NCBI GenBank assembly: GCA_944391405.1
Contig: CALXTN010000008.1
Coordinates: 1-64,000, forward strand
Direction of reading: 5' to 3'
From: an uncultured Alphaproteobacteria bacterium
GTDB taxonomy: Bacteria; Pseudomonadota; Alphaproteobacteria; RF32; CAG-239
DNA: 64,000 nucleotides
Both the position numbers and the translations under genes were made by a program. Positions 28,370 through 33,531 of this stretch are shown piece after piece. Below the pieces are notes generated by a model. The model had not been told where the DNA came from and did no database searches. It saw only the letters and a program-made list of their open reading frames with translations. How positions within the stretch are numbered: the first letter of the stretch is position 1; each line of letters begins with the position of its first letter.

Positions 28370-29580
28370 CAGCGATAATAAAAGAAGCATGGATATCAAT
28401 AGCATCATACAAGCTGAGAACATTTTTAACCATGCTCGGCATCATGATAGGTGTGGCAGCGGTAGTGATGATGGTATCGGCAGGACAAGCCGTACAAAAC
28501 CGCATTACGGATACTTTTGCATCAATGGGAAGTAATTTGATTTTGATAGGTCCTGCGGAATTAGTAACCGGAGGCGTAAGAGGAGGAAGAGGCTTACCAA
28601 GCGTAACGGTGGCAGACGTTGCCGCATTAAAAACTCTAAAGGATGTAGAAACAACCTCATATCTGATGAATGCCGCGGTTCAAGCCGTATATGGTTCTAG
28701 AAACTATGGTGTAAGCGTAAAAGGAACAAATCCTGATTATTTGGCGGTAAACAACTGGGAAATAGAAGATGGTATTATGTTTACCGAAAAAGATGTCCGT
28801 GCAGCTAAGCCTTATGCGGTAATAGGGCAAACAGTTGTGGATGAGCTGTTTGGTTTACAAAACCCGATAGGCAAAACGATACGTTTAAAGGGAAAGCCAT
28901 TTACCGTAATAGGAACCCTGCGTGAAAAAGGCGATGGTTTAATGGGGGATGATCAAGACAATATTATCTTGATGCCATCAACAACAGTTCGACAGAGGAT
29001 AGCGGGTTCCCCTCGTCCGCAATATACGGGAATAGCTTTTGTTAAAGCAACGTCCGAAGATAAGATGGAGTTGGTGGCAAAGCGTGTGGAATATATGTTG
29101 CGAACCAGACATAGATTGAAAGATGGTGAAAAAAATGATTTTACCGTAAGATTGATGACGGAAATGGTAGAAAAAGTTCGTAGTGTAGGCTTTGTATTAT
29201 CGGCATTATTGGCAGCGATTGCTTCCATTTCTTTGATTGTCGGTAGTATTGGGATTATGAATATGATGCTTGTATCTGTAACCGAGCGCACAAGAGAAAT
29301 AGGTACCAGAAAGGCACTGGGCGCGCCAAACAGTTGGATAATGATGCAATTTTTGGCTGAATCGGTGTTAATTTCGTTTATTGGTAGCTTTGTCGGCATG
29401 GTGTTTGGAATAGCCTTTTCGCAATTAGGCGGACATTTGTTCGGCTATGAAGTACCGATTTCCATTTGGTCAGTTATCGTATCGGTAACGGTTGCGGTGG
29501 TAGTAGGTATTGTTTCGGGACTAATGCCGGCCTTAAAAGCGATGCGTTTGAATCCAATAGATGCGTTGAGGTATCAATAA
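28363..29580 (+). CDS. MacB-type FtsX-like ABC permease
   Basis: A 405-aa mechanotransmission permease: one membrane helix at about 20-40, a large periplasmic MacB domain (about 45-275), then three helices (about 280-400) with the FtsX motif SLIVGSIGIMNMMLVSVTER and the conserved TREIGTRKALGA coupling segment. It forms the split MacB with the preceding ATPase and closes the tolC-macA-macB operon. Confidence 0.9.
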   Translation: MLTAIIKEAWISIASYKLRTFLTMLGIMIGVAAVVMMVSAGQAVQNRITDTFASMGSNLILIGPAELVTGGVRGGRGLPSVTVADVAALKTLKDVETTSYLMNAAVQAVYGSRNYGVSVKGTNPDYLAVNNWEIEDGIMFTEKDVRAAKPYAVIGQTVVDELFGLQNPIGKTIRLKGKPFTVIGTLREKGDGLMGDDQDNIILMPSTTVRQRIAGSPRPQYTGIAFVKATSEDKMELVAKRVEYMLRTRHRLKDGEKNDFTVRLMTEMVEKVRSVGFVLSALLAAIASISLIVGSIGIMNMMLVSVTERTREIGTRKALGAPNSWIMMQFLAESVLISFIGSFVGMVFGIAFSQLGGHLFGYEVPISIWSVIVSVTVAVVVGIVSGLMPALKAMRLNPIDALRYQ

Positions 29581-29603
29581 ACAAAAAATAGCCAAATTTT
29601 TGC

Positions 29604-29632
29604 TTGCCAGAGTCTCGATTCTATGGTATTAT
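29604..29632 (+). promoter_or_regulatory. Helicase promoter with two GANTC sites in the spacer
   Basis: TTGCCA (29604-29609), 17 nt, TATTAT (29627-29632). The spacer contains GAGTC (29610-29614) and GATTC (29617-29621), both GANTC, the alphaproteobacterial CcrM methylation motif. Expected leader about 26 nt before ATG 29665. GcrA-controlled promoters in Caulobacter carry such sites between or near the -35 and -10. Confidence 0.65.
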
Positions 29633-29664
29633 CAATTAGTTTTTTAAACAAAAGAGGACGAGAA

Positions 29665-32100
29665 ATGCCGATAGATACAGAAACATTAGCCAAAATAGAA
29701 GCCAACAAAAGACAATGGCGTGAAGGTATAGCGCAAGAAAAAAACAGTGAAACAAGAGAGCGTCAAGAAAGTTTTCGCGCACTCAAAGAAGGTATCATCA
29801 AAAAGTTTGTAGCCAACGAGCTGGATTTGGAAGACCGCCAAGAGGAAAGCATATTAAAGCTGGTAGATAAAGATAGCGCGGAAGATGCTTCTTTAAGCCA
29901 TGGTTATTTCCACGCGTGTACGGCGTTTGGCAAAACCTATTTAATGATGGCAATGGCAGAGGGTTATCGAGCGGAAGCACCTCATAAAAAGATTATCATC
30001 TTAGAAGAAAATACCAAAGTCTTAGAGCAAGTTAAGCAAGATTTTATAGATAAAACCGGCTTTTCGGCTTCGGAGATTGGGGCTTTTTACGGCAAAGAAA
30101 AAACAGCCGATACGCCGATAGTTGTGGGTACTTATGCCTCAATGGAAAAAATGATAAATGCGGTCGGTAAAGAAAATATCGGGTTGGTATTATGCGATGA
30201 AGCGCATCATATTTTATCAGAAAACCGCCGTCGCGTGGCGCAAGTGTTTAACAGTTCCTGCCTTTATGGCTTTACCGCCACTCCGGAATATGACAAAGAT
30301 AAAGATTGCGCGGACGTGTTTGGCAAAGTAATCGATTCGGTAACCTTGCGAGAAGGTGTGGAAGAAGGCTTGCTTTGCAGTTTCAAAAATGGTCTGTTCG
30401 TTTCAAAAATTCCGGTAGATTTAACGGATGCGATAAACAGCAGTGGTGACTATGACGGAGAAAAACTTGCAGAAATCCTTAAACAGTCACACTTGCATGG
30501 CATAAGAGAAGAATTGGCAGATTATTACTTAACCTCTTCAGACCCTGTTATCGGGCAAATCAAGGGCAAACCCACAATAATCAACGTTCCAAACCAACAT
30601 GAAGCAGATGAACTGGCAACAGTGTTTAATCAAAAAGCGGGTTATAATATAGCGCAAGCCTATCATACCAACAGCGGAGAAAGTCCGTTGCAAGAATTTA
30701 ATTCCGGCAAGTTTCCGGTCTTGATACAAGTCAATCGTGTCACCGAAGGATATTCAAATAAAAAAGTAGAAGTCTGCATCAACTACCCGACAGCGAGCAA
30801 GGTCAAAGCTGCGCAAAGAGGTGGCAGAGCTCTTCGTCAAGATAAGGAAAATCCGGATAAAGTAGCGTTGATAATGGATATAGCGTTTAAGAGAAGCAAC
30901 AACAAAAGCACGTTGGAAGAAATTCGTGAAAACGGGCAAGTTCTGTTTATGGATATAGCCGAAGACGTCGCCATTATATCTTCCAATATGCGTCCCAAAA
31001 TAGCAGAGATAAATAAAAGCCGTCACAAAAATACGAACCAAGATAAGGATGAGGTTGACACAACGCATCTATTTGATGTTGTGGTGGATATGGAAGATTT
31101 ATATGACATGAACTTCACCAAACTTATTCATGAAGAAGAAAACATGCCACAGCGCAATAAGTTGGATACCGATTTAATAAGTAGTGTATTCCAACACCAA
31201 TGGATTTTGAAGCAAAATGGTAAATCATTAAGCGAGGATGAAAAAAGCAACTTATGGAAACAAATTATTCAAGCAAAGCTGGAATTATTTACCTATGTCC
31301 AAGCAGGAAAAACACGACAAGCATATGTGATAAGCCAAGAGCAACAAAGTGCTTTCAAACAATACTTGCAAGAGCAGGGTTATGACGTAACCTCCCCGGA
31401 TGAAAAATATCAAAGCGTTGAACGTAATAAGTTGGATACTGATTTAGGTAATACTGTATTTCGAGACCAATGGAGTTTGAAACAAAACGGTAAATCTTTA
31501 AGTCCAAAAGAAAAAAGCAACTTATGGAAACAAATTCAAACGAAGCTGAAATTATTTACCTATGTTCAATCAGGAATACAACAAGCATATGTGATAAGCC
31601 AAGAAAAACAAAATGCTTTCAAACAATATTTGCAAGAGCAAGGTTATGACGTAACCACACCGGATGAAAAAGTGCAAAGCATTGAACGTGATAAGTTAGA
31701 TACCGATTTAGTAAATACTGTATTTCGAGGTAAATGGAGTTTGAAAAAAAATGGTAAATCATTAAGCAATGATGAAAAAAGCAACTTATGGAAACAAATT
31801 TACCAAGCAAAGCCAGAATTATTTACCCAGATTCAAGCAAGACGCAATCAAACGTATGTGATAAGTAAAGAAAAGCAACAAGCATTCAAACAATATTTGC
31901 AAGAGCAAGGCTATGACGTAACCACACCGTATGATAAATTGCATGAGGCGCAAGAACAAGCCACTCAGGCAAAAACACCGGAAGAGCGGAAAAAATATCT
32001 GGCAAAAGCCAAAAAGATATTTGAATCCCTCAATCCGAAAATAGCCAAAGATAAAACTTGTGAAATATGTTTGAACAAAATCTCTCAATCCCGCGAATAA
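29665..32100 (+). CDS. DEAH-box SF2 helicase with three tandem C-terminal repeats
   Basis: An 811-aa cytoplasmic superfamily 2 helicase resembling the ResIII/type III restriction helicase group. Motif I is TAFGKT (K90), motif II DEAH (D178), motif III GFTATP, and motif VI QRGGRALRQD is near 387. After the motor (to about 440) come three near-identical repeats of about 88 residues starting at residues 497, 587 and 675, each opening with KLDTDL and closing with YLQEQGYDVT. A short tail follows (EAQEQATQAKTPEERKKYL) with a CEIC pair. I recognise no nuclease or methyltransferase domain. The repeats may be DNA- or protein-binding modules. GAGGA precedes ATG 29665. It is monocistronic, with its own promoter and terminator. 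Function is unknown; nucleic-acid defence or repair are possible. Confidence 0.8.
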   Translation: MPIDTETLAKIEANKRQWREGIAQEKNSETRERQESFRALKEGIIKKFVANELDLEDRQEESILKLVDKDSAEDASLSHGYFHACTAFGKTYLMMAMAEGYRAEAPHKKIIILEENTKVLEQVKQDFIDKTGFSASEIGAFYGKEKTADTPIVVGTYASMEKMINAVGKENIGLVLCDEAHHILSENRRRVAQVFNSSCLYGFTATPEYDKDKDCADVFGKVIDSVTLREGVEEGLLCSFKNGLFVSKIPVDLTDAINSSGDYDGEKLAEILKQSHLHGIREELADYYLTSSDPVIGQIKGKPTIINVPNQHEADELATVFNQKAGYNIAQAYHTNSGESPLQEFNSGKFPVLIQVNRVTEGYSNKKVEVCINYPTASKVKAAQRGGRALRQDKENPDKVALIMDIAFKRSNNKSTLEEIRENGQVLFMDIAEDVAIISSNMRPKIAEINKSRHKNTNQDKDEVDTTHLFDVVVDMEDLYDMNFTKLIHEEENMPQRNKLDTDLISSVFQHQWILKQNGKSLSEDEKSNLWKQIIQAKLELFTYVQAGKTRQAYVISQEQQSAFKQYLQEQGYDVTSPDEKYQSVERNKLDTDLGNTVFRDQWSLKQNGKSLSPKEKSNLWKQIQTKLKLFTYVQSGIQQAYVISQEKQNAFKQYLQEQGYDVTTPDEKVQSIERDKLDTDLVNTVFRGKWSLKKNGKSLSNDEKSNLWKQIYQAKPELFTQIQARRNQTYVISKEKQQAFKQYLQEQGYDVTTPYDKLHEAQEQATQAKTPEERKKYLAKAKKIFESLNPKIAKDKTCEICLNKISQSRE
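31153..31940 (+). repeat. Three tandem 264-270-bp coding repeats
   Basis: Copies begin at 31153, 31423 and 31687, all in frame. Their nucleotide identity is visibly high, for example the shared stretch AAAAAGCAACTTATGGAAAC in all three, so the expansion looks recent and copy number may vary between strains. Confidence 0.9.
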
Positions 32101-32158
32101 GGATAAAGTTAAGGGAATAGGAATTCTGTTTTTGATTATTTAATCAAGCTCTAAAACA

Positions 32159-32186
32159 AAAAAAGCCTCAATGAAGAGGCTTTTTT
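32159..32186. terminator. Bidirectional terminator between helicase and gltX
   Basis: A stem GCCTC/GAGGC extended by A-T pairs with an AATGAA loop, with an A run on one side and a T run on the other, between convergent genes. Confidence 0.85.
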
Positions 32187-32208
32187 ATTTATCCGCAATA
32201 AAGAAAGA

Positions 32209-33531
32209 TTATGCTTTCTCCCCGTTAAGACGCAAATAAGCCTTTTCTCTGCCGATAAGCGGCAACAAAGTTTTTAATTCCGGTCCATTTGCCTGAGCAG
32301 TGAGAGCCATACGAATAGGGTGGAATAAATCCTTACCTTTTCTGCCGGTTGCTTCTTTGAGTTTATTCATCCAATTATTGAAAGTGGCATCATCAAAATC
32401 GCCTTCGGGAAGCATTTGCGCAGCTTGAGCCGTAAAGTCAGCATCTTCCATAATCGGTTCAATCTCTTTGTTGCAAATATTATCCCACAACAAAACATCT
32501 TTGGCAACTTCAAGATTTCCTTTAACATCGTTCCAGAAAGTTTCGCTCACACCAAAATTATCTTTAAGTGCGCCATAAGGCATATTGTGAACGAGTTTAG
32601 TATTAAATTTCTTCAACTCTTCTTCGTCAAATTTCGGCTGAGCGTGTCCGATTTTGCTAAAATCAAGAGTTTGAGCCAAATCATCTAAAGAATAAAAAGG
32701 TTCAATCGCTTCAGAAGTGCCGAGCTTTGCCAAGAATGAGCAAATTGCCATAGCTTCAATGCCGTCTTCACGCAATTCACGCACACCAAGACTGCCGAGT
32801 CGTTTAGAGAGTTTTCCCTCTTTACCGGTCAAAAGCGGCAAGTGCGCAAATGTCGGAACATTTCCGCCAATAGCCTTAAACATTTGAATTTGTGCAGCTG
32901 TATTGGTAACGTGATCTTCACCTCTTACAATGTGGGTAATTTTGAAATCCACATCATCAATAACAGAAGGCAAGTGATACAAATAGCTACCGTCTTCACG
33001 AATGATAATCGGGTCAGAAAGTTTACTTGCTTCATAGCGGCAAGTTCCTCTGACAACATCATCCCAAGCGATTTCTTCATCAATCAACTTAAAGCGATAG
33101 TGTGGCTTACGTCCTTCAGCCTGAAAGCGAGCAATATCAGCTTCTGTATAAGACAAAGCCTGTCTGTCGTAAATCGGTGGTAATCCTCTGGAGAGTAATC
33201 TCTTGCGCTTAAATTCCAACTCCTCAGGTGTGTCATAACATGCATAAATTCGCCCTTCTTGTTTTAATTTTTCAACAACTTCATCATAGCGAGCAAAACG
33301 AGCGGATTGTCTTGCTTCTTCATCCCAAGAGATACCCAACCAAGTCAACGCATCTCTGATACCGTCTTCATATTCTTTTTTCGAGCGAAGTTTATCTGTA
33401 TCATCAATTCTCAACAACAACTTACCGCCCATCTTCTTTGTCCAAAGATAGTTAAACAAGGCGGTTCTGGTATTACCGATATGCATCCAGCCGGTAGGGC
33501 TTGGTGCAAATCTGACTTTAATATTTGACAT
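32209..33531 (-). CDS. gltX: Glutamyl-tRNA synthetase
   Basis: A 440-aa class I synthetase that charges tRNA-Glu. The HIGH-type motif is HIGN (17-20) in PSPTGWMHIGNTRTALF, and the KMSKS-type motif is KLSKR in GKEGKLSKRLGS. It also has YDRQALSY and HIVRGEDHVTNTA. Many alphaproteobacteria carry two gltX paralogues, one of which can prefer tRNA-Gln; which this is cannot be told here. At 440 aa it is slightly short. It converges with the helicase gene. Confidence 0.95.
   Translation of the reverse strand: MSNIKVRFAPSPTGWMHIGNTRTALFNYLWTKKMGGKLLLRIDDTDKLRSKKEYEDGIRDALTWLGISWDEEARQSARFARYDEVVEKLKQEGRIYACYDTPEELEFKRKRLLSRGLPPIYDRQALSYTEADIARFQAEGRKPHYRFKLIDEEIAWDDVVRGTCRYEASKLSDPIIIREDGSYLYHLPSVIDDVDFKITHIVRGEDHVTNTAAQIQMFKAIGGNVPTFAHLPLLTGKEGKLSKRLGSLGVRELREDGIEAMAICSFLAKLGTSEAIEPFYSLDDLAQTLDFSKIGHAQPKFDEEELKKFNTKLVHNMPYGALKDNFGVSETFWNDVKGNLEVAKDVLLWDNICNKEIEPIMEDADFTAQAAQMLPEGDFDDATFNNWMNKLKEATGRKGKDLFHPIRMALTAQANGPELKTLLPLIGREKAYLRLNGEKA

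Follow-up and report, generated by a model that had tools for sequence, protein, structure and literature searches.

The stretch of DNA analysed here, in the following called the window, comprises 64,000 nucleotides of an uncultured alphaproteobacterium (contig CALXTN010000008.1) and encodes a DEAH helicase whose C-terminal part is an array of three related units. In every unit the same four positions are hypervariable, which is the main feature beyond those described in a first-pass annotation of this DNA. We suggest, with slightly more confidence than doubt, that the protein is a solo motor aimed by a modular, diversifying array, that the ligand is likely DNA and that conflict with mobile DNA is the likely reason for the diversification. 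That the array is a recognition array under diversification we hold more firmly than this reading as a whole, and a role in anti-phage or anti-plasmid defence less firmly.

The gene is located at positions 29665–32100 of the window (plus strand, as all features given below; stop codon included) and according to the list of open reading frames and Pfam codes for a helicase of 811 amino acids. The reading frame, which ends at 32100, may start at 29623 or at 29665; AGAGGACGAGAA upstream of the ATG at 29665 is a plausible ribosome-binding site, and the alignable part in the relatives begins at this start with MPIDTETLAK. Both motor domains, ResIII/DEAD (29821–30288, Pfam ResIII 1.6e-22) and Helicase_C (30562–30837, Pfam 8e-9), score above the Pfam cut-offs and place the protein among the SF2 DEAH helicases/translocases of the ResIII superfamily. 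The Walker A motif CTAFGKT (TAFGKT at 29920–29937, read from the sequence), the DEAH box (Walker B, 30196–30207), GFTATP and QRGGRALR (motif VI), with which the second domain ends, are all in place; the DEAH box as well as the G and the K of Walker A are invariant in six relatives. Judged by these motifs the motor is an intact SF2 DEAH motor, in agreement with the ResIII-like motor of the first-pass annotation. Its best sequence matches in the PDB are XPBII (1.6e-6) and UvsW (9e-6), with ∼120–175 residues aligned; we know of no such array in XPB/Rad25 or UvsW helicases. It had also been claimed that no nuclease or methyltransferase is attached or adjacent. This claim holds: scans with Pfam, NCBIfam, and PADLOC found neither domain in the protein, and among the neighbouring genes compared and read by eye there was no accompanying nuclease or methyltransferase gene and no restriction partner (Mod/HsdM/HsdS, specificity subunit). 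In PADLOC the protein gave partial motor-domain matches only (PbeA 5e-13, mREase_IV, REase_I), and no PADLOC model of a known anti-phage defence system covers it.

The array comprises unit 1 (31159–31428), unit 2 (31429–31692), and unit 3 (31693–31959), each of ∼88 residues, the starts being spaced by 270 and 264 nt. The residues at the hypervariable columns 9, 13, 51, and 52 form a four-letter word for each unit, S-H-T-R, T-D-I-Q, and T-G-R-N, respectively. Columns 9 and 13 lie in the predicted helix 1, at 31183–31197 in unit 1 (column 9 at 31183–31185, column 13 at 31195–31197), 31453–31467 in unit 2, and 31717–31731 in unit 3, and columns 51–52 at the tip of a predicted hairpin or wing (31309–31317, 31576–31581, and 31843–31848, respectively). 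The units score 105–110 bits against the unit profile, so that the repetition is far beyond chance. With pairwise identities of 80–86% at the nucleotide level and 73–79% at the amino acid level, the three previously described copies are real, but the wording "nearly identical" was too strong. As the longest exact run common to two units is 30 nt, short-read collapse of the array is unlikely, and an assembly artefact as its source was rejected. The net charge of the array is +11 and that of the motor −20; column 52 is R/K/N/Q/H in 77% of the units, and some individual units have a net charge near zero or are negative. The array is followed by a conserved C-terminal tail (31960–32097) with a CxxC motif (CEIC, 32059–32070). 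This tail, with the consensus TPEERKKYL..A..IF..LNP.....C..C, is found after the array in helicases (the window and locus L057) and in one stand-alone array (L046), which suggests from the sequence a shared capping or metal-binding end.

No known domain was recognised in the unit. A database search with the repeat unit had been named as the test that could refute its novelty; a single unit passed no curated cut-off in Pfam, nor did the array in NCBIfam, and the matches of the unit in Pfam, NCBIfam, PADLOC, and PHROGs were sub-threshold or inflated by the repeats. UPF0180 (33 bits), NYN (25 bits), NusG, and ATG5_HBR were set aside because only the multi-unit array passed the cut-off by summing short pieces, and HSDR_N (23.7 bits) because it stayed below the cut-off. 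The suggested structure prediction yielded a confident AlphaFold2 model of a single unit (33 rows; mean pLDDT 91.6, pTM 0.81) with a helix at 12–18, a strand at 20–23, a helix at 30–43, a hairpin at 49–52/58–62, a helix at 64–76, and a strand at 79–82 (numbered such that K5 is column 1). In this model columns 9 and 13 (model residues 13 and 17) would share one face of helix 1, columns 51 and 52 lie in the hairpin turn, and column 26 starts helix 2. The model of three units has linkers at low confidence, which is consistent with beads on a string. Foldseek gave no significant match for the single unit or the three-unit model; the weak matches of the unit were winged-helix regulators (PadR with DNA, PefR, MepR, TubR, SarA) and procarboxypeptidase propeptides. 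Thus, the winged-helix label that we use for the unit is a reading and not proven homology.

The combination of motor and array, pointed out in the first-pass annotation as a build without known family, is confirmed by four sister species that carry the motor and the same unit type at the same place. Where aligned, the motor of the window is 97–98% identical to theirs in amino acid sequence, the synonymous difference is 0.11–0.13 and dN/dS is 0.08–0.11; the motor is under purifying selection among the sister species. The arrays have 5 (L032), 6 (L033), 5 (L034), and 4 units (L035) compared with 3 in the window. Reading columns 9, 13, 51, and 52, the window array is SHTR-TDIQ-TGRN, L032 is SHTR-TDTQ-SSAN-YNTR-TNQH, L033 is SNGR-DSSK-NHPK-NNPQ-VRAN-SNKH, L034 is NSNN-TGPK-SQNK-RDTN-TAKH, and L035 is TKSN-SKTQ-SSTQ-TSQH. 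Among these 23 units 22 distinct words are found, compared with an average of 6.9 for four random other columns, a count that is descriptive as the four columns were picked for their variability. In the window, unit 3 is a mosaic made from L032 units 3 and 5, with the tail following unit 5; copies have therefore probably been lost by recombination between units. The earlier suggestion of a recent expansion or an ongoing change in copy number thus holds for the change, as the five sister species have 3, 4, 5, 5, and 6 copies, but probably not for the expansion: from its sequence the array of the window seems to be a mosaic left by contraction and not a recent gain of units. In a further relative (G006, L060:7962-8687) a natural allele has an in-frame deletion extending between the DEAH box and the tail, its junction marked by a short direct repeat, and in two genomes (G012 and G009) macB and gltX are direct neighbours, so that the site is empty. 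The interval between macB and gltX (29578–32211 in the window; also L149, L150, L152, and L153) is a hot spot which, where it lacks the helicase, holds other, differing genes or is empty (L151 and L154).

Columns 9, 13, 51, and 52 are the most variable ones in five lineages of arrays (permutation P < 1e-5); the arrays of these lineages (I–V) are 61–83% identical apart from the hypervariable columns. As in modular DNA-binding tandem repeat proteins, the window-type arrays show the same few hypervariable positions on an otherwise conserved scaffold. When the columns were chosen in four lineages and scored in the fifth, dN/dS was 1.8–3.7 at these columns versus 0.2–0.5 elsewhere. In a parsimony count of ancestral changes on unit trees, 132 nonsynonymous changes fall on the hypervariable columns, where the synonymous rate of the whole array would predict 73 (P 3e-10); omega is above 1 at columns 8, 9, 13, 26, 51, 52, and 54. 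Taken by themselves, the hypervariable codons have an N/S that does not exceed the neutral expectation (P 0.21), since synonymous changes are also somewhat raised at these codons, and the smallest lineage V with its four units is not significant alone (P 0.39). All these statistics come from lineages that are related to each other and from units that recombine.

Helicases of the same clade from two other alphaproteobacterial families bear arrays of their own with 4–7 HTH-like modules. In one family (L102, L128, L129, and L130) the arrays have 6, 7, 7, and 5 units, respectively, of ∼72 amino acids each that read roughly WLTADELxxYF.G..KIL.KL.EL...MPxKI...SGxxTPLCLH..ALDEF..LSGL, and the most variable columns across the arrays include 9, 15–17 at the start of the second helix and 42 at the wing tip. 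Because most of these arrays are close to saturation at synonymous sites, we make no selection claim for them; the units matched no Pfam HTH family. In further genomes of the second family, such 72-residue HTH-like arrays also occur with no helicase attached (L133:5431-6366, L134:171-1388 near a contig end, and L135:3-1094, which is cut by the contig end). The other family (L101 and L136–L142) has units such as GYTSGDVAKVLGVSQQTATLLIELY... whose variation is located where the recognition helix begins and in the surroundings of the wing tip. By its Pfam matches the array of L141 is an HTH array (HTH_23 5e-12 and HTH_17 8e-12, above the cut-offs when summed over the repeats). Profiles link several of the sister-array types together at 79–90%; none joins the window-type unit to the HTH-like sister arrays. 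DNA as the ligand is hinted at most strongly by this common plan, in which one type of motor is combined with several types of HTH-like modules varying at the helix and the wing tip.

The window-type units were found in 14 of the 153 genomes of the order, and no such unit was detected beyond one family in wider samples of the class and the phylum. Phylum-wide searches yielded no further window-type array and only weak matches to the motor. A scan with the motor of 84,980 species genomes gave ten loci, nine in uncultured Alphaproteobacteria and one (L061, JAISFX010000171.1) titled "Lactobacillus sp."; the latter, whose record is probably a mislabelled MAG, is the same contig as that of genome G031 and is thus placed in the alphaproteobacterial family of the window. 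More divergent copies are present at other places: one (L038) is close to an infA-like gene, two are in G011, and another (L057) has four divergent units, with a profile link of 94%. In addition, stand-alone proteins consist of units only (L044 and L045 with 8 units, L046 with 5, and L047, which is cut by the contig end). The repeats break short-read assemblies in relatives with arrays: contigs of G011, G013, and G014 (L037, L040, L042, and L048–L050) end inside arrays, so that the unit counts there are minimum values and public genomes probably contain more such genes than are counted.

The helicase gene stands alone between a TolC/MacA/MacB-like export operon and gltX. Generally, it is a solo gene in housekeeping neighbourhoods outside of defence islands, and its presence is patchy with empty sites in the same genus. 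When neighbours were cross-compared and read by eye, no constant partner gene was found across families beyond close relatives and some large surface-protein-like genes. The latter open reading frames (1398–2036 amino acids; L045:534-6641, L102:12290-16483, and L142:7826-12103), mutually similar by blastp, lie next to or near array genes in three families; genes of this kind may be frequent in the genomes concerned, so that their position is possibly due to chance. Searches of viral contigs, phages, and plasmids yielded no relatives of helicase or array apart from ordinary helicases; the plasmid helicases matched at 22–28% identity, and the one from Waddlia is a short protein with no room for an array.

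HA-domain helicases consist of an SF2 helicase followed by several small helical domains which are thought to bind nucleic acid. The window protein likewise joins an SF2 helicase to several copies of a small domain, but its unit is longer, has a beta hairpin, and did not match PF03457, which is absent from the matches down to E = 1; to our knowledge diversifying positions are not a feature of HA-domain helicases. With TALEs, STAR, MOON, and pTERF the array shares a build from tandem near-copies of a single domain, each with a few hypervariable positions, for example, the RVD-like positions 12 and 13 in STAR and the hypervariable positions in MOON (Hu et al. 2024, PMC11417379). In contrast to their short helical repeats, the window unit is ∼80–90 residues long and winged-helix-like, and it is fused to a DEAH motor, a fusion absent from the main text of that study; DNA binding is in its case predicted. 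An assignment to the TALEs themselves was rejected, as a unit of ∼88 residues with an alpha/beta model differs from helical repeats of 33–35 residues with the RVD at 12–13. The zinc-finger arrays of PRDM9 and KRAB proteins are similar in being a coding minisatellite with unit shuffling, fast-changing DNA-reading residues, and a conserved effector part (PMC3890296 and others). On the other hand, the domain of the window protein is unrelated, bacterial, and joined to a helicase motor instead of a methyltransferase or repressor domain, and positive selection is less firmly shown here. Thus, the protein resembles TALE, STAR, and PRDM9 in evolutionary logic and is a member of none of them; what is new compared with the modular tandem-repeat recognition proteins is the fusion to a motor. 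A literature search for a recognition array fused to a helicase motor found none.

We suggest the following mechanism. A constant SF2 DEAH motor would carry a C-terminal string of compact winged-helix-like domains on short flexible linkers, and the ligand would be read by four variable side chains in each unit, of which one pair lies on a single face of helix 1 and the other at the tip of the beta-hairpin wing. The ligand would most likely be double-stranded DNA with several base pairs per unit, so that 3–6 units make up a long composite site. Recombination between units would alter their number and shuffle them while selection alters the readout residues; the recognised site would then differ between sister species with the motor unchanged. 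Once docked, the motor may use ATP to translocate on or remodel the DNA at the site, for example, by stripping proteins from a phage, plasmid, or transposon or by blocking its replication or transcription. DNA as the ligand, base reading by the four residues, the ATP-driven action, and the benefit in defence against mobile DNA are what we infer, and nothing speaks decisively for DNA maintenance or for defence, both of which are likewise inferred. In favour of the motor–array reading are the frozen motor, the turnover of the array, the shared hypervariable positions with their excess of nonsynonymous change, the basic array, the unit model, the HTH-like sister arrays, and the patchy presence. 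Counting against it are the lack of a significant Foldseek match and of a profile link to the sister arrays, the within-codon N/S, the housekeeping neighbourhoods without an effector partner, and the units with a charge near zero or negative.

Alternatively, the array could be a diversifying binder of proteins or peptides which recruits the motor to variable partner proteins of phage or host instead of a DNA sequence. Repeats with variable patches are typical of protein recognition too, and neither Pfam nor Foldseek offers a proven DNA-binding homologue of the window unit. We nevertheless consider a protein ligand unlikely: the same type of motor carries HTH-like sister arrays whose variation is found around the recognition helix and the wing tip, R/K/N/Q/H predominate at column 52, and a basic array is attached to an acidic motor. 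The solo gene, its housekeeping neighbourhoods, and its absence from the viral, phage, and plasmid records searched would fit a chromosomal regulator or maintenance protein whose array binds fast-changing host repeats or promoters, following a KZNF- or PRDM9-like logic without any role against invaders; the motor-less stand-alone arrays could be such regulators. This is slightly less likely still in our view, since patchy presence with empty sites in the same genus indicates a dispensable gene, and a simple regulator needs no motor.

It could also be argued that nothing is recognised and that units expand, contract, and recombine neutrally, the variable positions being unconstrained surface sites. 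The copy number does change readily, N/S within the hypervariable codons is compatible with neutrality, and in G006 an in-frame loss has removed the array together with part of the motor. Against this, nonsynonymous change at the hypervariable columns is faster than synonymous change over the array as a whole, the remainder of the unit is constrained (dN/dS 0.2–0.5), and five lineages single out the same few positions, which makes a neutral origin improbable. Finally, the first-pass annotation had considered a decayed restriction subunit for the case that orthologues lack the array; such a subunit would be of Type I or III, and its tail would have expanded. The ResIII motor domain is indeed shared with the motor subunits HsdR and Res, and the allele of G006 is decayed. 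But the array is kept together with the motor in four sister species and in the wider helicase family, the motor motifs are intact and under purifying selection (dN/dS about 0.1), and in contrast to HsdR and Res the gene has no nuclease, methyltransferase, or specificity partner. An identity as Type I/III restriction enzyme was rejected, since neither a nuclease domain nor a neighbouring Mod/HsdM/HsdS partner was found, and decay from such an enzyme is hardly credible.

Returning to the motor aimed by a diversifying array, these gut-type Alphaproteobacteria combine a frozen motor with a tail that changes its number of units and four key residues between sister species, and this tail resembles what a retargetable array for DNA recognition, similar to zinc fingers or TALEs, would look like in bacteria. 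Modular code-like recognition of DNA by proteins is known in few systems, and we know of none in which a helicase motor is attached. Should DNA be read by the four positions, these arrays would be natural binders, already diversified, on a new scaffold; their several unit types, spread over three bacterial families, could then serve to derive a recognition code. More tentatively, and with more doubt than confidence, we propose a new class of bacterial immunity or genome-conflict protein, in which a stand-alone DEAH motor carries a retargetable winged-helix array and protein residues, four per unit in 3–7 units, encode a DNA address that is rewritten by recombination and selection. If this is true, protein modules would do what CRISPR does with spacers, and the array might be reprogrammed like TALEs with a motor attached. 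A frozen motor (dN/dS about 0.1) whose tail is rewritten between sister species would point to an active conflict or fast adaptation even if the array does not bind DNA. The finding makes it testable whether bacteria run an arms race of the PRDM9 or KZNF kind in protein, and what its target is.
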